Shown: piece after piece, positions 1-13,672 of the stretch | Layout: every line of letters starts with the position of its first letter | Numbering within the stretch: position 1 is the first letter of the stretch | From: Vibrio bathopelagicus | Lineage (GTDB): Bacteria > Pseudomonadota > Gammaproteobacteria > Enterobacterales > Vibrionaceae | Direction: 5' to 3' | DNA length: 64,000 nucleotides | Assembly: GCF_014879975.1 (NCBI RefSeq) | Contig: NZ_CP062500.1 | Span: forward strand, 2,046,001 to 2,110,000 | Notes under the pieces: model-generated | Database searches by the model: none | The model's input: the letters and a program-made list of their open reading frames with translations, nothing else | What the model was told of the DNA's origin: nothing | Made by a program: the position numbers and the translations under genes

Positions 1-2204
1 TGAAGCTGCTGGTAATCAGGCATTTGATGCCAAAACCTGGCTAGTAGATACACCTTATTCTGCGCTGGTTTACCTGAGGTATGAACGCAAGCCAAAACAG
101 CATTAAGCGCTTTTTCTAGGGGAGATACACCTTGTTCATTTCTACCTTGTCTGAGTATTGATACAGCAGGCTTGTTAACCTTAATCAGGGACTGAATGTC
201 TTTTTTGACTTGTACTGGGTTTCTGGTGACAAATTGCGTTGCTACATCTCCAATCGCACTGTTAAAACGAAACGTTAAATCCAATTTTGTTTCCGAAGTC
301 GCACCGAAATACTCAACAAAATTAGTAGTAAGCTTAACGTCTGCACCACTAAAGCGATAAATAGCCTGCCAATCATCCCCAACACAAAACAGTGACGTAC
401 CAGGCAGTGAATCACGCAACGCTTTGACTAGCCTAGCTCTGGGCTCTGAGATGTCTTGAAACTCATCCACTAAGATGTATTTCCAGGATGAAACAAACTG
501 TCCGGTTTGGACGTACATCAATGCTTTACTGATCATGTCATTGAAATCTATCCACTGTTTTTCACGAAGAAACAGCTCATAGCGATTGTATAGTGGATAC
601 AACAACTCTAATGCTTTCTCTGTTTGCTTGGGATCGATTGAGTTTCTAATGACGTTCTCTATCGCAATATCATCAAGGCAAGCCGCTTTGTACATATCCA
701 CCAAAGCACTAAACAATTTAGCCAACTCTGTCACTTGACCTAACTGGCGCAGGTTATTAAGTAAATCCTGTGGCGGGATGGGGTTAAATTCGACTTCACG
801 CTCCAACAGTTTATTTTCAAGCACCTGAAGAAGCTTTCCAACTTTATGCTGGTGGTAGAACACCTCAACATAACCAGTCTGGTATTGCTTGTGCGTTTGG
901 CGTTTCCATTCAATCGACTCTTGATAGCGATCTTTATCAATCCACGGGGCTGTATTACCGTGCTCATCAGTACCGTAGTATTCAATGTAAATGTCGTGGT
1001 CTGGTAAATAAAAGTCTGGGTGATATTGGCGATATTGATCTGTACTTACGTCAAATCGATAGCTCGCTTCATAATCATAATTAATTCCGTTTCTAAATAG
1101 CCAGTTGGCAATGACAACCTCACCGTAACTCTTTACCTGGTCGCCTTTCAATGAACGGATGTCATTGTCAGTTAAGTACTGTAGATACTCACCTTCACTT
1201 TGAAACTCAAAAGGATTCTTATCAACAAAATAATACGAGCTGAAGTACTCAAGTAAAGACTCACGGTAGCCATCATCAAGCATGAGTTGCTCTAGGTTAT
1301 CGTTCATCCATTTTGATTTAGCTTTAATGTCGTCTTCAAATGGGGATAGGTTTGGTTTTGAACCTTCAACTTCAGCGATTATTTTCATACCCAAGCTATG
1401 GAAGGTGCTGGCTCTCACGTCATCAAAACCCAGTTTGTCTTTGATGCGCTCGTCCATTTCCTTAGCTGCAATACGACCGTAAGCCAACAGCAAGATATCA
1501 TTTGCAGTCGCTTGATCACTATTAATCAGATACCCAGTTCTACCAACCATAACACTTGTTTTACCGGTACCCGCTCCAGCTAAAAGTAGATTGTTGTCGT
1601 TATCCGTAATACAAGCGATTCGTTGCTTCTCTGTTAACGGGTTAGATTCGACGTTGTCGAAAAACATTCCGTATTCTGTTAGCTGCTTTTGGACGTAGGC
1701 ATAGCGCATATTCTCAATATCTGACGGCTTCCAGGCACAAATTACATCGAGTGTGTGAGCGACCTGTTGGGCTAGTTCGCTTAACCCTAAAGCTGACCGC
1801 CATCCCTTCCACCTTTTCGCTTCTTTATTTGCGATGGTTTGAAAGCTTCGAGTTTCAGACGTTCTAATAAAACTTGCGGCAGAGGCATTTTCCACTTGGT
1901 CCAAAAATGGAATCAGTTTCTGAGCGTTACTGTTGGCCCAAAAAGGAAAGAAAGTGTGTTTGTGTCGATGTGTAAATAGGTAGCTCAACATCGGAACGGA
2001 CAAACCGACGTCATTTGTTTCAAACGACAAAACGCCACCTGAAAAGCCTAATTTGGCTACTGGAGGAGCAACTATCGTATCCCACTTGTACAACGTTTTT
2101 ATATTGTCTTTGAAGATGGTAATACCGTCTTCGTTAACGTTTACCTGTTGTCGCTTGCCAAGAAGGTGTGCCAAAAAGTTGGTTTTGAGGAGAAGTTTCG
2201 TCAT
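1..2204 (-). CDS. UvrD/HelD-like DNA helicase with inserted nuclease-like segment (C-terminus cut off)
   Basis: Superfamily 1 helicase, open to the window edge, so the C-terminus is missing. The first ATG is at 2204. Visible motifs in order: Walker A AGAGTGKTS near residue 208, Walker B VDEFQDIS near residue 580, and motif III-like GDDWQAIYRFSG about 35 residues later. These match E. coli helicase IV (HelD). Unlike HelD (about 684 residues), this protein has an extra segment at about residues 355-455 with SYGEVVIANWL, then HPDFYLPDHD and YIEYYG, the spacing of a PD-(D/E)XK-type nuclease core. It lies 153 bp downstream of the HNH gene on the same strand and may be co-expressed with it. I infer a role in DNA processing or phage defence. 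Helicase identity is secure; the nuclease segment is a pattern call. Confidence 0.85.
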   Translation of the reverse strand, partial: MTKLLLKTNFLAHLLGKRQQVNVNEDGITIFKDNIKTLYKWDTIVAPPVAKLGFSGGVLSFETNDVGLSVPMLSYLFTHRHKHTFFPFWANSNAQKLIPFLDQVENASAASFIRTSETRSFQTIANKEAKRWKGWRSALGLSELAQQVAHTLDVICAWKPSDIENMRYAYVQKQLTEYGMFFDNVESNPLTEKQRIACITDNDNNLLLAGAGTGKTSVMVGRTGYLINSDQATANDILLLAYGRIAAKEMDERIKDKLGFDDVRASTFHSLGMKIIAEVEGSKPNLSPFEDDIKAKSKWMNDNLEQLMLDDGYRESLLEYFSSYYFVDKNPFEFQSEGEYLQYLTDNDIRSLKGDQVKSYGEVVIANWLFRNGINYDYEASYRFDVSTDQYRQYHPDFYLPDHDIYIEYYGTDEHGNTAPWIDKDRYQESIEWKRQTHKQYQTGYVEVFYHQHKVGKLLQVLENKLLEREVEFNPIPPQDLLNNLRQLGQVTELAKLFSALVDMYKAACLDDIAIENVIRNSIDPKQTEKALELLYPLYNRYELFLREKQWIDFNDMISKALMYVQTGQFVSSWKYILVDEFQDISEPRARLVKALRDSLPGTSLFCVGDDWQAIYRFSGADVKLTTNFVEYFGATSETKLDLTFRFNSAIGDVATQFVTRNPVQVKKDIQSLIKVNKPAVSILRQGRNEQGVSPLEKALNAVLACVHTSGKPAQNKVYLLARFWHQMPDYQQL

Positions 2205-2357
2205 TAAAAATACAATCGCAAAGTTGGAATGATAACGTTATATGCAACTGTAGTTTACATGACAAAGTATGAACTATAGTGATCTACATCGGTATTGAAG
2301 GGAATAGAGCTCTGACTTTTACCCAGAGCACTCTGAAGGTATTGAGCAAGAATTCAA

Positions 2358-3485
2358 TTAGCGTCCTTTAAATAACTCGCCTCGATGACAACGAAGGTAT
2401 GGTCTGTGATCCGGCATGATTCTAAATGCCATATCTTCCTTTAAACCGATCATATCCGGAGACTCCAAGTAGCTTGAAATAAGTACCTTTCCGTTATCAT
2501 CAAAGGAGATAAAACCGAGATCAAACGCTTTATCTAGGTTGGCAAGAAGCAGCAAACCATTAAATTTATCTAATCGCTCTTCATTACTAGAATCTCGCCA
2601 GGGTTTAATGTGTGAAGCCAATAACAGCTGTGTATTTCGATACCCTGTAATGGCGCAACCACCCCACATCTGAATCAGCTTTGATCTAAAGTGTCCCTGC
2701 CCTACTCTTGTATTAACCAAAATAGTCTTTTCAGTTTCGGACAAAGTTTTGTCAGTCATCACTTGTTTGATGTCTGCATTAACATCGACTTGAGATAGGT
2801 CAGCTAAAAACTTGTGGTAATGAGACAAAGCGGCGCTGTACATCCCCTTACCCCTAGAGTCACAAATTTGAAACTGTTCCAACTTTCTCGCTTTTTCTTC
2901 ATAACCAACAAACTCACGATACGAATTGATATCAGTAAGCGGTGCTTCTAACTCACCAACATCCATCAACCAATTAGATATCGAGCCTCTTATGGCTCCA
3001 AGGTAGTTCTTCGCGGTTTTTTCAGATTTACCAATATCAATCAACCACTGATGATATAACGTCGCTAGATCAGATAGATTAGAAACTAAAGCATCCTTTA
3101 GTTCGTTAGAAACGATATAGCTTTTCATGTAGCTAAACAGCTCATCGTCAATATATGCGTGGGAGACCGCCTTTACTGAATAACGACTGGTTGACGTATT
3201 GTCATAACCGTCATTGAAGAAAAGGTGCCAAAAGCCTTCACTTCTCAAATGGAAGAAAGGGTTTTCTGGGGTATTTTTGTCAGCCCCCTGAGCTAGGTTA
3301 TCAAAGTGATGTGTAAACCGTTCTTTAAGGGCTTGGTTAAGGCAGATCTTATTGGTCGAAATATGCCCTGCTTGAATTAGATCCATAACAGCCAGCAACA
3401 TACAGACTTTATGAGGACTTTTTTTGCCACCAGCATTGTTCATTTTCAGGTTTTGAAAACGATCTAAGTAGTACTCTAATGCCAT
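2358..3485 (-). CDS. HNH endonuclease (HNH_2 type), putative restriction enzyme
   Basis: The 375-residue protein ends in an HNH_2-type nuclease domain: a GCAITG turn, then HIKPW about 15 residues later, then NGLLLLANLDKAFDLGF, which carries the conserved Asn, Asp and Asp/Gly of the fold. The N-terminal half (around residues 18-90, with SPHKVCMLLAVMDL and NPFFHLRSEGFW) resembles the modified-base or specificity modules of McrA-like restriction enzymes, and a middle helical part separates the two. Its ATG overlaps the stop of the methyltransferase gene (TAATG), so the two are translationally coupled. DNA cleavage is inferred from the family. The target, and whether cleavage depends on a DNA modification, cannot be read here. 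Confidence 0.8.
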   Translation of the reverse strand: MALEYYLDRFQNLKMNNAGGKKSPHKVCMLLAVMDLIQAGHISTNKICLNQALKERFTHHFDNLAQGADKNTPENPFFHLRSEGFWHLFFNDGYDNTSTSRYSVKAVSHAYIDDELFSYMKSYIVSNELKDALVSNLSDLATLYHQWLIDIGKSEKTAKNYLGAIRGSISNWLMDVGELEAPLTDINSYREFVGYEEKARKLEQFQICDSRGKGMYSAALSHYHKFLADLSQVDVNADIKQVMTDKTLSETEKTILVNTRVGQGHFRSKLIQMWGGCAITGYRNTQLLLASHIKPWRDSSNEERLDKFNGLLLLANLDKAFDLGFISFDDNGKVLISSYLESPDMIGLKEDMAFRIMPDHRPYLRCHRGELFKGR

Positions 3486-4114
3486 TATCGACCCTTGCTT
3501 TTGTTAGATTTTGCATGTTCTAACACTACGGTTCGCCAAGATATCTCTTTTCTCTTCAATGAATCAGAGTCTTCGGCAACGTGACAGACTGTCAGCCCTA
3601 CAGCTTCACTTAACCTTTCTAATTGTTCGACTGAAACACTGTAAGCACTACGCTCATCATTAAAGCCGCCATGACGCAATGTGATCACTAGTTTTCCATT
3701 CTCGGAAAGCAGTTCAGACAATACAGCGATCGACTCTTTTCGAACCGCCGAATTTAAATGCATCCATACCGCTGAAAGTAAAATCAAATCGTAATGACTG
3801 CACAGCTCTCTAGCTTTGCTTAAAGCAGGCAGAGCATCGTCTAACCACTGAACTTGAGTCGAGGAGTTTAATCTCCCTAACTGGCAAAGTTCGCTTGCTG
3901 GTTCAACAGCGACCACTGAGCAGCCTTGTTCAACAAACCACCTCGAATCTCGACCTGAGCCAGCACCGATATCAAGTACACTTGCATCACCATAAGGCCA
4001 ATACATACGCCACACACGGTGGACATTTTCGAATTCTAAAGAATCGTACTGCTTTGCAAGCTGAACAGCGTTTTCGTTGTAGTAAGAAACATTCCCCGAC
4101 ATAAACCGACCCAT
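3485..4114 (-). CDS. Class I SAM-dependent methyltransferase
   Basis: A 209-residue Rossmann methyltransferase. Motif I is VLDIGAGSGRDSRWF (about residues 45-59), followed by the acidic ribose-binding VVAVEPA and the motif IV region HYDLILLSAVWMHL. It has no NPPY or PC motif, so it does not look like a DNA base methylase; the sequence is closer to TehB/UbiE-like small-molecule or RNA/protein methyltransferases. A second in-frame ATG 12 bp downstream (4102) is an equally good start. It is first of a coupled pair with the HNH nuclease and points towards the helicase gene. I infer that it works with those two; the methylated substrate is unknown. Confidence 0.75.
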   Translation of the reverse strand: MGRFMSGNVSYYNENAVQLAKQYDSLEFENVHRVWRMYWPYGDASVLDIGAGSGRDSRWFVEQGCSVVAVEPASELCQLGRLNSSTQVQWLDDALPALSKARELCSHYDLILLSAVWMHLNSAVRKESIAVLSELLSENGKLVITLRHGGFNDERSAYSVSVEQLERLSEAVGLTVCHVAEDSDSLKRKEISWRTVVLEHAKSNKSKGR

Positions 4115-4253
4115 ATACCAATCTGACTCGATAGTATATGGGTCAGTTGCATATGACGATTAAGTATTAGATAAGTATCAGTAATTGTGATTAGAGTCTC
4201 GTGATGCCTAACTAACAAGTATTCCATCGATTTACTGCCTTTTTAAGAACATA

Positions 4254-4279
4254 GAGCCAGTAGCTTTCACTACTGGCTC
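4254..4279 (-). terminator. Perfect 10-bp hairpin after AlpA gene
   Basis: The arms GAGCCAGTAG and CTACTGGCTC pair perfectly around a 6-nt loop, just past the stop of the AlpA gene at 4289. There is no strong T-run beyond it, so termination may be weak. Confidence 0.5.
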
Positions 4280-4288
4280 ATACTGTTG

Positions 4289-4456
4289 CTACATTCTATT
4301 ATCTATCCATTCATCCAGTTCGTACTCTACCCATGCAGAAGCTCTCTCACCGAGTGATACGTTGTGTGGAAACTCCCCGTTAGCCATCATTTTATAGATA
4401 CTCGATTTACTCAACTGAACCCTTTCTATTACTTCTTTTAAACGAACTAATCTCAT
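4289..4456 (-). CDS. AlpA-family DNA-binding regulator (55 aa)
   Basis: Short ORF starting with MRLVRLKEVIERV and continuing QLSKSSIYKMM, then NGEFPHNVSLGERASAWVE, ending in DEWIDNRM. This is the AlpA/MerR-like helix-turn-helix pattern (RLKEV...LSxSSIYxxxxxGxFPxxVxLGxRAxxW) found on P4-like and CP4-type elements, where AlpA controls excision or island genes. The start codon sits inside a TCTCATGAGA palindrome, and a second identical palindrome is 29 bp upstream, so autoregulation is likely (inference). It is one of three AlpA-type genes in this island. Confidence 0.85.
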   Translation of the reverse strand: MRLVRLKEVIERVQLSKSSIYKMMANGEFPHNVSLGERASAWVEYELDEWIDNRM

Positions 4457-4513: not shown

Positions 4514-5014
4514 TTACTTGGGCTCTAGCTTAAGCTTGTCTTGAGTAGTGGTTCCTATTTTTTGCTCCACATCATTTCCCATTACACACACCATGCTTGG
4601 GAATGGCGCTGCATCCTGCTCCTCTCCATCTTGTAAGAACTTAAGTCGCCCCTTAATAAGACGCACCTCTCCATGGCTTAAATGGTCATGGAAGGCTTTT
4701 GTGTCCGTTCTAGCAGGAACCAACATGACGACGGTTGCCCCTTTATTCGCTTCTTCTTGTGCTTTCTTAGCAAAGTCTTTGAGTTGGGAATAAGGTGGAT
4801 TGCAGTAGACCGTCTGATTACTCCAGTCTTGAGTGAGCGCATCATCATCCATCGTGAAGTAATGGTCACACAGTGCTGTTTCAGGCTCAGCCGTTGCATC
4901 AAGCGTAAAGTGAAATTCTTCGTTGAGCTTCTTAAATACAGCGGGTGGTGTTTGCCATTTGTCACGCTTGGGGTTCCCTGTTCGAGCGCTGGAGAAAAAG
5001 AGCTTATTGTCCAT
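4514..5014 (-). CDS. Phage-type DNA N-6-adenine methyltransferase (Dam family)
   Basis: 166 residues. RDKWQTPPAVFKKLNEEFHFTLD at the N-terminus and YCNPPYSQLKDF in the middle are the signature of the small phage N6-adenine methyltransferases (PF05869-type); NPPY is the catalytic motif for adenine amino methylation. The ATG at 5014 is preceded by AAGGAG with 7-nt spacing; an in-frame GTG directly before it is less likely to be used. The gene overlaps the preceding YagK/YfjJ-like gene by 11 bp, so it is the last gene of that operon. In islands and phages such enzymes give protection against host restriction or regulate the element; which applies here is unknown. Confidence 0.88.
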   Translation of the reverse strand: MDNKLFFSSARTGNPKRDKWQTPPAVFKKLNEEFHFTLDATAEPETALCDHYFTMDDDALTQDWSNQTVYCNPPYSQLKDFAKKAQEEANKGATVVMLVPARTDTKAFHDHLSHGEVRLIKGRLKFLQDGEEQDAAPFPSMVCVMGNDVEQKIGTTTQDKLKLEPK

Positions 5015-5681
5015 CACAACTCTCCTTGGTATTAGCGTAATCGGCTTTCTTCTTGGCCTTTTTAGATTTACTGATAAACGAGCCTAATGTGTTTTTCTCA
5101 TCATGAGTCGTTGTGTTGACTCTGGCCTGTCTACTCAATACATAGAAAAGAAACCCACGCTGGTAACGGTAATCATCATGCTCTTTGTTCAACTCAACGA
5201 GTGGTTGATTCAGAAAGAGACAAACGGCATTGATATTACGTTTATCAACATTGGTTGTATTTCTCCACGAGTTTTTGGTGTCTTTTGTCAGTCGCTTTCT
5301 AAGCTTGAATTCATTGACAAATGGAGGGTAACTTGAAGCATCAAGGAAAAGAGTCATACGGTAACTTATACAACCCGTTTGGCTCACCTCCCTTTTCCAT
5401 ATCACGTTAAGGTTGTCATCCTTTCGGTAGTGGCACAGACGGTAGAACCATTGGTTGATTAGCGTTTTCTCTTGCTGGTTTTGTTTTTTGGGTATTCGTA
5501 ACCGGAATCGAAAGACATAACAGTGACCAAAGCGCATCAAGGCGTTTTGATATGCACGAGATAAAATCTCAAGCGCAGCCAGAGAAAGATTGCCATGGTC
5601 AATATCGACTTGATAATCACGATAAAACCCCTTCTCTAATTGCTTCAAACCTGCCTCATTGTTCATCATTTTATCTTCCAT
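5004..5681 (-). CDS. YagK/YfjJ-like (inovirus Gp2-like) island protein
   Basis: 225 residues from the ATG at 5681, which has AGGAG at good spacing; a longer in-frame reading to 5789 would run far into the AlpA gene and is unlikely. The central pattern (CYVFRFRLRIP, then NVIWKREVSQTGCISYRMTLFLD) resembles the YagK/YfjJ C-terminal domain seen in CP4-type prophages and inovirus Gp2 proteins. Gp2 relatives usually have a His-rich strand (HYH) where this protein has SYR, so the metal-binding HUH-type chemistry may be lost. The C-terminus is Lys-rich. Overlaps at both ends place it in an operon with AlpA (upstream) and the adenine methylase (downstream). Confidence 0.6.
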   Translation of the reverse strand: MEDKMMNNEAGLKQLEKGFYRDYQVDIDHGNLSLAALEILSRAYQNALMRFGHCYVFRFRLRIPKKQNQQEKTLINQWFYRLCHYRKDDNLNVIWKREVSQTGCISYRMTLFLDASSYPPFVNEFKLRKRLTKDTKNSWRNTTNVDKRNINAVCLFLNQPLVELNKEHDDYRYQRGFLFYVLSRQARVNTTTHDEKNTLGSFISKSKKAKKKADYANTKESCDGQ

Positions 5682-5940
5682 AGCGTTTCTCCTGTTTTGC
5701 CTTTTCCACTGCTTGTATTGCCAGTCTTTCGTCTCGCTCTTGTATCTTCTCTTGTATCCAGTTTTGGATATCTTGAGAGCGCCAGCCAATGGCTCTCGCG
5801 CCTAATGACACGGACTGAGGAAAAGCACCTTGTTCCATAAAGCTGTAAATTGACGCCCTTGAAAGGCCACTGATATGAATCACTTCTTTTAATCTCATCA
5901 AGCGATTGGGATGTTCGGTGTTCGAATGGTTTGAATTCAT
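5671..5940 (-). CDS. AlpA-family DNA-binding regulator (89 aa)
   Basis: RLMRLKEVIHISGLSRASIYSFM followed by QGAFPQSVSLGARAIGW shows the AlpA helix-turn-helix. A C-terminal charged helix (QEKIQERDERLAIQAVEKAKQ) is added compared with the 55-residue paralogue at 4289. I chose the ATG at 5940 because AAGG lies 8-9 nt before it; an in-frame ATG at 5964 also exists. The gene overlaps the next one by 11 bp. It is divergent from the RadC gene, with about 155 bp between them, which must hold both promoters. Likely role: switch for the operon of YagK/YfjJ-like protein plus methylase (inference). Confidence 0.85.
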   Translation of the reverse strand: MNSNHSNTEHPNRLMRLKEVIHISGLSRASIYSFMEQGAFPQSVSLGARAIGWRSQDIQNWIQEKIQERDERLAIQAVEKAKQEKRYGR

Positions 5941-6095
5941 GATGACTGCCTTTGTTGGTTTCACTCAAACAAAGACGTTGTTGTGTATTTTTTATCTCAA
6001 CTGGTCTCAGGTGGCCTCATTCAAATTCGATTGAAAAGTTTTTCACATCCATATTATCCCCTTGAGTATTCCGTTTATTGATACAAGGAGAAGAT

Positions 6096-6560
6096 ATGGA
6101 AACGCTATATACCTTCAGCGCTCCCGTCACAGAGCACCAGATATTAGAGAAAGCCGTCGAGATACTAGAGAGCCGCTTAGTGAGTGGGGATGCTTTTACT
6201 CGTCCGAATGACACGAAAGCCTTTCTACGCTGCAAGCTAGGAGAATATGAGAGAGAAGTCTTTGGGGTGATGTTACTCAACAACCAACATCAGTTGATTG
6301 AGTTCAATGAGTTGTTCTTTGGCACGATTGACAGCGCTTCAGTGTATCCACGAGAAGTGGTGAAGCTGGTGCTTGAGAGAAACGCCTCAGCGGTGATTTT
6401 TGCTCATAACCATCCATCGGGTGATTCCACCCCATCACAGGCTGATAGACGCATTACAGAGCGTTTAAAGGATGCTTTAGCACTGATTGATGTGCGAGTA
6501 CTCGACCACATTGTGGTGGGCAGTGATTGTGTGTCTTTTGCTGAGAGAGGTTGGCTATGA
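6096..6560 (+). CDS. RadC/YeeS-family JAB (MPN/JAMM) protein
   Basis: 154 residues from ATG 6096, chosen because AAGGAG precedes it at the right distance. The JAMM metal-binding motif is intact: FAHNHPSGDSTPSQAD, with an upstream Glu in REVVKLVLERNA. Members of this family (often named RadC or YeeS) are almost constant on P4/CP4-like islands. Despite the name, a DNA repair role is not established; a JAMM fold suggests peptidase or isopeptidase-like activity. Its stop overlaps the start of the next gene (ATGA), and the two DUF2787 genes follow, so it leads a rightward operon. Confidence 0.9.
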   Translation: METLYTFSAPVTEHQILEKAVEILESRLVSGDAFTRPNDTKAFLRCKLGEYEREVFGVMLLNNQHQLIEFNELFFGTIDSASVYPREVVKLVLERNASAVIFAHNHPSGDSTPSQADRRITERLKDALALIDVRVLDHIVVGSDCVSFAERGWL

Positions 6561-12179: not shown

Positions 12180-13421
12180 TTAACCCACAATCTTAAGGCT
12201 CTTTTTACCACTCATCGACAAGCTTCCTGTTGCAGCTTCTTCAATATGATCACTCCACCACGCCATTAGAACTTTGCGACGTTCAAGGTAGTCTGTGCGG
12301 TTATATGCGCTTCTCACCTTATCTCTATCAACATGAGAGAGCGCAGCTTCAATAATATCTGGATCGAAGTTCTGCTCATTTAGAGTGGTACTGGCTAATG
12401 CACGTAAACCGTGAGAAGTTTGCCTGCCCTTCATACCCATTCGTACCAATGCTTTATTTGCTGTCTCTTTATTGATGTGATTGGGGTTGCTTTTGTCTGC
12501 TGGGAAAATGTATTCACTTTCACCCGTGATGAAATCAATTGTTTCTAATAGGTCTAAAGTTTGTTTTGTTAAAGGAACAGTGTGTACTCTTCCTTTTTTC
12601 ATTCGTTCAGCAGGAATGATCCAAAGCATCTTTTCTCTATCAATTTCATCCCAACGTGCCCCGGCTGTTTCAGCTGGCCTTGTCATAGTATGAAGTTGCC
12701 ATTCTAGCAAGCAGCGAGTGATCGGCTTAATTGACGCGTAGTTGATTGTTTTGAGGAGTTCTGGAAGCTCATCTGGGGCTAACGCAGCTTGGTTGGTTAC
12801 CTTGGCGGTTTCAAATGCTTTACCAATACCTGCGAGCTTGTTGTGCTCAATAACACCTGTGTTTACTGCAAAGGTCATTATCTCATTGAGATTGCGACAC
12901 AAGCGCCCTACTGTTTCTAATTTACCTTGGTTCGCAATAGGTTTAATTGTTTTAATCGCTTGAGGGGCTGTAATATCGCTAAGTGGACACTTACCTAGAT
13001 CCGGCAAGAGGTACTTTTCTATTCGTTGTTTTAACTTTTTAGCCGTTTGCTCTTTGACGCTTGTTCTCTTCACTTCAATCCAATCATCAAATACCGACTG
13101 TAACGTATTCGACAATTCTAACTGTTTTTCTCTAAGAGTAGTGTCACGGTGCTCTTTAGGGTCAATACCATCAGCAAGTAGTTCTCTCGCTTCAATAGCT
13201 TTGGTTCGAGCTTTAGCAAGCGATACAGATGGGTATTTACCAATACTGAGGTTTGCTCGCTTACGAGTAATTGGACGGTAATAGTTAAAGAGCCACAATT
13301 TGGAGCCATTAGGCTTTATTCTCAATGCAAGTCCATCGCCATCGAGCAGGTTATATTCCTTTTCTTTAGGTTTTGCTTGCAAGATCTGCGTAGCCGTTAA
13401 TGGGGTTGTTTTCTTAGCCAT
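12180..13421 (-). CDS. P4-type tyrosine recombinase (island integrase)
   Basis: 413 residues. The N-terminal DUF4102-type arm-binding domain (LLDGDGLALRIKPNGSKLWLFNY, LSIGKYPSVSLAKAR) is typical of P4/CP4-57 integrases. Catalytic residues are visible: Arg in HTMTRPAETAGARWDE, the HxLR box in SHGLRALASTTLNE, His in ALSHVDRDKVRSAYN, and the Tyr nucleophile in YNRTDYLERRKVL. It starts 175 bp from the 3' end of tRNA-Val and should integrate and excise the island there. The ATG at 13421 is followed by the family start MAKKTTPLTATQI. It looks intact. Confidence 0.95.
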   Translation of the reverse strand: MAKKTTPLTATQILQAKPKEKEYNLLDGDGLALRIKPNGSKLWLFNYYRPITRKRANLSIGKYPSVSLAKARTKAIEARELLADGIDPKEHRDTTLREKQLELSNTLQSVFDDWIEVKRTSVKEQTAKKLKQRIEKYLLPDLGKCPLSDITAPQAIKTIKPIANQGKLETVGRLCRNLNEIMTFAVNTGVIEHNKLAGIGKAFETAKVTNQAALAPDELPELLKTINYASIKPITRCLLEWQLHTMTRPAETAGARWDEIDREKMLWIIPAERMKKGRVHTVPLTKQTLDLLETIDFITGESEYIFPADKSNPNHINKETANKALVRMGMKGRQTSHGLRALASTTLNEQNFDPDIIEAALSHVDRDKVRSAYNRTDYLERRKVLMAWWSDHIEEAATGSLSMSGKKSLKIVG

Positions 13422-13595: not shown

Positions 13596-13672
13596 TGGTG
13601 CCCGCTACTGGACTCGAACCAGTGACACCTTGCATGTCATGCAAGTACTCTAACCAACTGAGCTAAGCGGGC
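13596..13672 (-). tRNA. tRNA-Val (anticodon GAC)
   Basis: 77 nt including an encoded CCA. Acceptor stem GCCCGCT/AGCGGGC, anticodon stem CTTGC/GCAAG with loop ATGACAT giving anticodon GAC, and T arm with GGTTCGAGTCC. The discriminator base is A. It is intact and is the presumed attachment site for the island to its left. Confidence 0.96.

Follow-up and report, generated by a model that had tools for sequence, protein, structure and literature searches.

A predicted sulfur-binding HNH nuclease coupled to a small non-DNA-type methyltransferase in Vibrio bathopelagicus

Introduction

Type IV restriction enzymes of the SBD-HNH layout (SprMcrA, EcoWI, ScoMcrA, and Hga with structure 8h0l) carry an N-terminal sulfur-binding domain (SBD) and a C-terminal HNH nuclease. 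We analysed 64,000 nucleotides of Vibrio bathopelagicus (contig NZ_CP062500.1, positions 2,046,001 to 2,110,000, forward strand; this whole stretch is the window), in which a gene for a protein of this layout overlaps the gene of a small methyltransferase. The window protein shares the two end domains with the described enzymes but, unlike them, adds a helical middle domain and a methyltransferase partner (a HIT-domain protein in some relatives); the main text of the paper on the SBD-HNH enzymes contains no word beginning ‘methyltransferase’.

Several other described systems are close. VcaM4I (EVE-HNH, 6yex) supplies the sole solved HNH domain that was found by profile search; it differs in its modification-reading domain, and no methyltransferase partner is noted in the available part of its source. 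Type IV enzymes that join a PLD nuclease to a superfamily 2 (SF2) helicase, of which SauUSI is one, are filed as modification-dependent by PADLOC (mREase_IV) and, in relatives, are found next to, or joined in one protein with, methyltransferases of the same kinds; they differ in their nuclease and helicase parts and are absent from the window. DNA phosphorothioation (dnd) clusters with a TIGR04096 (dnd_rel_methyl) protein likewise tie a non-DNA-type methyltransferase to phosphorothioation loci, although that family is larger and separate. Type II restriction-modification (R-M) shares the arrangement of a methyltransferase and an endonuclease in one operon but, unlike type II, the window pair is without DNA-methyltransferase motifs and its nuclease changes under closely similar methyltransferases. 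PD-lambda-5, considered for its methyltransferase, is described by its authors as an R-M plus Abi-like system in the available part of the paper (PMC9519451), and was set against the pair by this description, not by sequence.

The HNH part is thus of a known kind. For its coupling to a methyltransferase or HIT protein, and for a fused methyltransferase-nuclease family described below, no earlier report was found in a literature search outside of which supplementary files lay, and one may have been missed; no such pair or fused family appears in the available parts of PMC10853773, PMC7461809, PMC12707154, PMC11662687, PMC12923530, PMC13092281, PMC9519451, PMC4012209 and PMC11090510. From domain content and gene neighbourhoods we propose, with a probability of roughly 0.6, that the locus is a two-gene restriction module formed by a type IV nuclease and a dedicated, swappable methyltransferase partner.

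Results

Domain architecture of the coupled pair

The genes and domains concerned are as follows (L and G numbers are our labels for loci and genomes).

3485..4114, minus strand: methyltransferase gene, 209 amino acids (aa); small class I S-adenosylmethionine enzyme of non-DNA type
2358..3485, minus strand: HNH gene, 375 aa; sulfur-binding domain, helical middle and HNH_2
3066..3485, minus strand: sulfur-binding domain, residues 1-140 of the HNH protein, placed on 8h0l by profile and Foldseek
2499..2657, minus strand: HNH_2 nuclease core, residues 277-329, placed by Pfam and alignment
3483..3487, minus strand: TAATG stop/start overlap of the methyltransferase and HNH genes, sequence context GGTCGATAATGGCA
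start 2204, running past the window edge, minus strand: helicase gene, 963 aa in the genome (L003:5313-8204)

An earlier note on this DNA had placed the three genes at these positions on one strand, had seen the TAATG coupling and had read the locus as of defence type within a tRNA island. All of this held: the three genes are on the minus strand, the overlap is present, and the island contains a tRNA-Val (13596-13672) with a tyrosine-recombinase-type integrase frame near it (12180-13421, named by reading, without a family search). What the note had missed was the sulfur-binding domain and, just outside the window, an RtcR-type activator alongside Druantia III and a type I R-M system (see below).

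The HNH_2 assignment made there was borne out by a match to PF13391 (42.6 bits). Residues H292, N309 and N316 are invariant in all 22 rows of alignment A1, and the motif suggests a catalytic role for them. When a 22-row profile was compared with solved structures, residues 1-138 matched 8h0l (the sulfur-binding domain SBDHga1, E = 6.5e-41) and residues 228-374 matched the HNH restriction enzyme VcaM4I (6yex, E = 7.6e-37). The AlphaFold2 model has a mean predicted local distance difference test score (pLDDT) of 74.6, falling below 50 at residues 264-297 in the HNH part. With this model Foldseek recovered 8h0l, entitled ‘sulfur binding domain of Hga complexed with phosphorothioated DNA’ (E = 2.4e-10, 36-39% identity), and more weakly the sulfur-binding domains of SprMcrA and ScoMcrA (E = 0.009-0.1). 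PF26340 was not reached at E 0.1 in the window’s own protein, and is precomputed for relatives. Owing to the N-terminal sulfur-binding domain and the HNH_2 domain, the protein is by architecture a predicted type IV, phosphorothioate (PT)-dependent restriction enzyme; its relatives also point to a modification-dependent nuclease.

Outside the chromosomes considered below, positions 1-4300 of the window gave no megablast match in E. coli genomes, and phage records gave seven partial matches to the HNH protein, none reaching 80% cover. In IMG/VR the sulfur-binding domain was matched in 0 of the best 80 of 100 confirmed loci, whilst 80% cover was reached in 4 of 98 plasmid records, at 25-26% identity. 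One Vibrio protein of 427 aa (P0090) fuses the start of the methyltransferase to an HNH protein lacking most of the sulfur-binding domain, and looks like a deletion product.

The methyltransferase matched Methyltransf_23, 12, 25 and 11 in Pfam. It also exceeded the cut-off for TehB (23.9 bits against 20.4), general methyltransferase families scoring higher, and its relatives reached 15.7-18.1 bits with TPMT, below the cut-off of 26. Its AlphaFold2 model (pLDDT 93.4) consists of the class I core only. The Foldseek neighbours included UbiG, TehB-like and phosphoethanolamine methyltransferases, the N-terminal protein methyltransferase NTMT1 and one tRNA enzyme; the best 50 of 1956 matches include no DNA methyltransferase. 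By reading, the translation contains neither a [NDS]PP[YFW] nor a PCQ motif, and its 209 aa hold no target-recognition domain. These results uphold the earlier view of a non-DNA-type enzyme without NPPY/PC motifs, and of a pair that is not ordinary R-M. A resemblance to MADS was rejected: the mad2 match (42.7 bits) spans the generic methyltransferase part only, mad2 is matched better by HsdM (149.9 bits), and no other mad gene was among the PADLOC matches listed except HsdS-mad5, taken as type I likeness.

Recurrence of the pair

Scanning species genomes for HNH-family members gave at least 582 confirmed relatives. The best 80 were kept, and in 39 of them (L004-L042) the match runs from the start of the N-terminal domain to the HNH domain inclusive. 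This methyltransferase was the adjacent gene in 28/39, lying upstream on the same strand in 21, downstream on the same strand in 4 and convergent in 3. Two of the downstream cases (L022, L039) carry the fused form of the methyltransferase, and the weakest neighbours are those of L036 (32%) and L038 (28% identity). As the neighbourhood recurs in 28 loci in several gene orders it is not a product of chance, and the coupling that the earlier note had seen in one genome is a recurrent one.

Elsewhere the partner differs. In L031 a different, TehB-like methyltransferase is convergent with the HNH gene, and a truncated methyltransferase of the first kind lies 3 kb off. A HIT-domain protein is encoded directly upstream of the HNH gene in 4/39, Pfam having confirmed HIT for L028 and L041:

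L028:9600-10001: HIT gene immediately upstream of the SBD-HNH gene, where other loci have the methyltransferase
L030:9511-9999: HIT gene in the same place
L041:9540-10004: HIT gene in the same place
L042:9606-9998: HIT gene in the same place

Neither partner was found in 6/39 (L007, L011, L015, L019, L024, L032), all of which retain an intact HNH motif. Two of them, L011 and L019, both from V. hepatarius, retain a decayed methyltransferase remnant (the first ~50 residues) beside the HNH gene. A second set, 394 genomes of the order, contained 17 full-length HNH matches. The methyltransferase adjoins 12; G259 has the TehB-like kind, and G193, G263, G283 and G340 are without an adjacent methyltransferase, the only kind of partner covered in this set.

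It could be argued that two mobile genes often share islands without being functionally linked, given that the window copies lie in an island and that 11/39 SBD-HNH loci are without this methyltransferase adjacent. However, the genes overlap, natural fusions exist, the linkage is kept through inversions of gene order and the partner has been exchanged repeatedly, which makes such hitch-hiking scarcely credible.

Fusion to and exchange of the nuclease

The methyltransferase matches listed for the 394 genomes fell into two groups at a cut of E = 1e-38, which was set after viewing the list; the tally was typed by hand. Eighty-eight matches reach this cut and 54 are weaker, with G303 (3e-33) in between. 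Of the 88, 77 are fused to, or adjoin, an HNH nuclease, although 35 of the 57 fusions were counted by frame length only. The open frames of these 57 measure 514-643 aa. All 22 that were fetched have a second part that BLAST relates to the segment of L039 or L044 containing HNH_4, the weakest being L225 (26%); HNH_4 was assigned by Pfam in L022, L039 and L044. A further 12 adjoin SBD-HNH genes and 8 a separate HNH gene of ~350 aa (one of these, G237, was read in L043 and equated by matching coordinates). Three lie beside SF2-helicase proteins (L193, convergent; L194; L195), one is in a dnd locus, one is a truncated fusion and one was left unclassified.

The fused form is abundant. A single fused protein as query found at least 2783 proteins at E 0.001 or better (7996 candidates scored). 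The 120 matches listed bear methyltransferase names throughout, whilst Pfam HNH_4 is precomputed for many. Because the fused form bears only methyltransferase names in these matches, the nuclease in an abundant family of Vibrio genes has probably gone unnoticed. In four genomes of the genus Vibrio (L209-L212) the neighbours of the fused gene are of similar size (242, 255 and 312-314 aa; compared by size alone), and the gene may be resident there and not mobile. The parts preceding the HNH core are related between the fused and the separate ~350-aa classes (profile comparison, 95.3%). Two further ideas were rejected. A sulfur-binding domain in the N-terminal part of the fused HNH_4 proteins, suggested by likeness to the eye, received probabilities of 0.4 and 0.1% in profile comparison. 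Mutual exclusion of the fused and separate forms in Vibrio is not absolute, since Vibrio sp. 10N.286.49.B3 has both, on contigs listed with the same length; G138, from another genus of the order, also has the two together.

A methyltransferase tree was built quickly from 67 rows chosen from those gathered (LG+G4 without mixture, with Shimodaira-Hasegawa-like approximate likelihood ratio tests, SH-aLRT; L013, L025, L038, L192, L204, L210, L212 and L225 are among those left out). Six partner labels require at least 19 changes on this tree, against a least possible 5 and a shuffled mean of 32.9, and a value as low was seen in 0/200 shuffles. The labels are therefore clustered, yet far from one origin each. 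The tree carries a long-branch warning, although the close pairs listed here are not among the joined long branches named. One such pair is L026, with SBD-HNH, and L191, with another HNH class: their methyltransferases are 95.6% identical, whilst the nucleases align over 22 residues only. Partners also differ between L023 and the fused L208 (methyltransferases 90.3% identical), L035 and the fused L039 (79.9%), L174 and L189 (77.4%), L167 and L186 (75.6%), and L029 and the fused L216 (74.0%). Taken together, the fusions, the partner changes on the tree and the L026/L191 pair show that the methyltransferase is the constant part and that the nuclease is exchanged among relatives.

Relation to phosphorothioation

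DndC was found in 21/394 genomes, and 20 of these dnd loci were examined (G210 was left out). In L246 and L247 a methyltransferase-HNH_4 pair lies inside the dnd cluster. The cluster of L248 contains a methyltransferase of the first kind and an HNH split over two frames, separated by further genes. Only the methyltransferase is present in L259 and only the HNH in L264; by the BLAST labels used, the other 15 loci have neither. The HNH proteins in these clusters are of another class (HNH_4). A ~680-aa protein of L246 and a 627-aa protein of L248 belong to TIGR04096, ‘DNA phosphorothioation-associated putative methyltransferase’. The window’s own genome gave no DndC match (SspB-D were not searched for), and neither the window nor its flanks showed a dnd gene. 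Avoidance of dnd by SBD-HNH genes was considered but draws no support from the counts: DndC is absent from 17/17 full-length SBD-HNH genomes (Ssp genes were not searched), but chance alone gives 0/17 with P = 0.39, so the absence lends no independent support.

These loci bear on the alternative that the pair is disguised R-M, in which the methyltransferase would methylate whatever mark or site the HNH protein reads, for example the PT sulfur, and so shield the host. The related pairs inside dnd clusters, beside TIGR04096, would suit this, as would operon coupling, fusion to nucleases and the likeness to chalcogen and sulfur methyltransferases seen in the TehB and TPMT scores. Nevertheless we consider it unlikely. 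Closely similar methyltransferases adjoin nucleases with different recognition parts, the V. hepatarius methyltransferase has decayed beside an intact HNH gene, the own genome gave no DndC match, and the 209 aa show neither a DNA-methyltransferase motif nor a target-recognition domain. That the enzyme is a classical guardian of the recognition site is unlikely: it stays constant under nuclease change, can be lost beside an intact nuclease and is without DNA-methyltransferase features.

A second subfamily, helicase partners and mobile elements

The 54 weaker matches form another small TehB-like family, of which 20 loci were chosen by hand (Pfam checks for L266, L278 and L284). Eighteen of the 20 lie beside one of two kinds of partner: 8 are directly adjacent to an HNH gene and 10 to a gene for an SF2-helicase protein (813-1058 aa). 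Neither was found beside the methyltransferase in L271 and L272. Outside the sample, members of this subfamily occur beside the PLD-helicase-S24 protein of L193, convergent with SBD-HNH (L169), and in dnd loci. The helicase protein of L195, beside a first-kind methyltransferase, matched a PADLOC type IV methyl-directed enzyme at 379.9 bits.

LexA-like S24 domains were seen in SF2-helicase proteins beside small methyltransferases in L193, L195, L278 and L284 (Pfam-checked) and, by likeness to L193, in L269, L276, L279, L281-L283 and L285. Most of these proteins have a PLD domain, which was not found in L278 and L284. L275 is without the end where S24 sits, and L276 is split in two frames. S24 could serve here as a switch that responds to damage.

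Nine plasmid or phage regions surround further methyltransferase relatives, and three have a fused or adjacent nuclease. The Polaromonas plasmid gene joins methyltransferase, PLD and SF2 helicase in one fusion, the Roseomonas plasmid gene is a methyltransferase fused to HNH_4, and on the Acinetobacter plasmid the methyltransferase is followed by an HNH gene. The Embleya region is unannotated around the methyltransferase relative. In E. coli phage phi458 (L290:2336-3519) the methyltransferase overlaps a small membrane-like protein, so named by reading, and an integrase gene adjoins. A similar overlap on a Sphingopyxis plasmid (L294:3549-4579) is divergent from cysteine desulfurase and DUF4007 genes. 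The two small proteins are 26% identical (E = 5e-11) and have no Pfam match.

A constant partner with exchanged effectors might also be expected of a toxin-antitoxin-like arrangement, in which the methyltransferase would neutralise a harmful nuclease and infection would lift the block; the phi458 and Sphingopyxis pairs, whose membrane-like partner is no recognised nuclease and matches no Pfam family, would accord with this. We regard it as decidedly unlikely, as an intact HNH motif is kept by all six SBD-HNH genes that lack both partners, including the two beside a methyltransferase remnant.

A broader view would take these loci as a widespread new class of defence module. Its core would be the small non-DNA methyltransferase, and its effectors would be exchanged: SBD-HNH, other HNH classes, often fused to the methyltransferase, SF2-helicase proteins with PLD and/or S24, and the membrane-like protein of two mobile elements. 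The methyltransferase would act on a step shared by all, for example by sealing cut ends chemically against repair or reading a nucleotide made in infection, and a HIT hydrolase could substitute for it. This class is possible, and we rate it well short of an even chance.

The adjacent helicase

The third gene is HelD-like, as the earlier note had said, and has an insert. Pfam assigned UvrD-helicase/AAA_19 and topoisomerase-type zinc ribbons at the C-terminus, and the NCBIfam model ‘DNA helicase IV’ (HelD) gave 512.6 bits, slightly below its cut-off of 543. The insert, at residues 345-472 of the helicase, matched the PADLOC candidate PDC-S69 (E = 1.9e-13). The nuclease-like insert (L003:6735-7307) has a PDFYLP..IEYYG stretch in which, by reading only, the PD-(D/E)XK catalytic lysine is not obvious. 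Gabija was rejected for this gene, since GajB (117 bits) is matched over UvrD parts only and no GajA was among the PADLOC matches listed for the scanned neighbours.

The note had counted the helicase as a third component and had looked to a recurrent three-gene neighbourhood as its check. This was not found. The helicase is common elsewhere, and its insert is present in 41/394 genomes (4 are weak matches in frames of ~300 aa); by coordinates, it directly adjoins the pair in the window’s own genome alone. Among the 39 other full-length HNH loci, with flanks of up to 10 kb (less at contig ends), the helicase was present in one, L034 of V. tasmaniensis (98% identical); L039 (39% over 86 residues) and L042 (24%) gave weak matches to general helicase parts. 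The trio thus fails by the note’s own refuting rule. A single defence system of all three genes, with the helicase-nuclease working alongside the pair, is therefore very improbable, even though the genes share a strand, V. tasmaniensis has the same trio as the window (identities 90, 97 and 98%) and the helicase lies within ~10 kb of a methyltransferase of either subfamily in G037, G311 and G012. The proximity in these three genomes looks like island sharing, and in the window a 153-base gap separates the HNH and helicase genes. The HelD-like helicase is a neighbour of the pair, not a component.

Surroundings of the locus

Adjoining the pair, at 4514-6560, are genes for a Dam-type methyltransferase (PF05869), YagK/YfjJ, AlpA and RadC, which are satellite or integrative-element equipment. 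To the left of the window, on the same strand, is an RtcR/PspF-type CARF sigma-54 activator (PADLOC RtcR_PspF2, 623.6 bits), beyond which follow type I HsdR-M-S and then Druantia III DruH-DruE:

L003:3773-5257 and L002:1227-17608: the CARF-AAA-HTH sigma-54 activator and, after it, the type I system and Druantia III

One GG-N10-GC site lies between the activator and hsdR (L003:3738-3753); such sigma-54 sites are not enriched in L003 (16 observed, 16.2 expected). In CoCoNuT loci, ‘superoperons’ headed by RtcR and containing Druantia III and type I R-M have been described (PMC11090510), and R-M with RtcR-like regulators has been reported (PMC4012209). Going by the available parts of these two papers, the arrangement is of a known kind. 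Left of Druantia, at L164:7836-14900, three more genes match the PADLOC candidate PDC-M27 C, B and A (53-253 bits), and the B and C matches also match Zac.

Discussion

If the locus is a type IV nuclease with a dedicated methyltransferase, invading DNA bearing PT, or a like mark, would be bound by the sulfur-binding domain and then cut, whilst the host, whose genome gave no DndC match, would bear no such mark and be spared. The methyltransferase would not be needed for self-protection, as the host would carry no PT mark. It would instead be an accessory enzyme acting on something common to all partner nucleases; a shared substrate is to be expected, since methyltransferases of close similarity partner nucleases whose recognition parts differ. 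The first-choice target would be the nuclease step, that is, cut DNA ends or a nucleotide product, blocking repair, or the nuclease protein itself, setting its activity; a base of the recognition site is not the favoured target. HIT proteins form a nucleotide hydrolase/transferase family and thus fit a role on ends or nucleotides, to which the HIT alternative points; given the rest, this step is held tentatively, at a little less than even odds.

Several observations weigh against the proposed module. The HNH protein does not reach the cut-off of NF045808 PT-DNA_restrict (63.4 bits against 180), a model of type ‘exception’, 284 positions long and narrower than the SBD-HNH architecture. The 39 full-length loci are not independent, several coming from near-identical species, and the frames of L025 are broken. 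Since 6/39 have no visible partner, the partner is not essential. In the census, no nuclease was recognised in 5/88 (L188, L196, L199, L203, L205; the neighbours of L188, L203 and L205 without a Pfam scan), nor beside the methyltransferase of G303, below the cut, and no annotated nuclease lies directly beside it in the Azospirillum, Streptomyces and Cyanobacterium regions (3/8 annotated). Some family members live with PT (L246, L247 and, loosely, L248), which would be dangerous for a PT cutter, and the absence of DndC from the SBD-HNH genomes is within what chance allows. Lastly, the mechanism of the methyltransferase is one that we infer.

Type IV enzymes are understood as needing no methyltransferase, since they cut modified DNA alone. 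A dedicated methyltransferase that is kept through exchange and fusion, with 77/88 HNH-linked, implies an unrecognised step in type IV immunity. Moreover, near-identical methyltransferases with different nucleases provide ready controls, so that the question of the substrate is directly testable.

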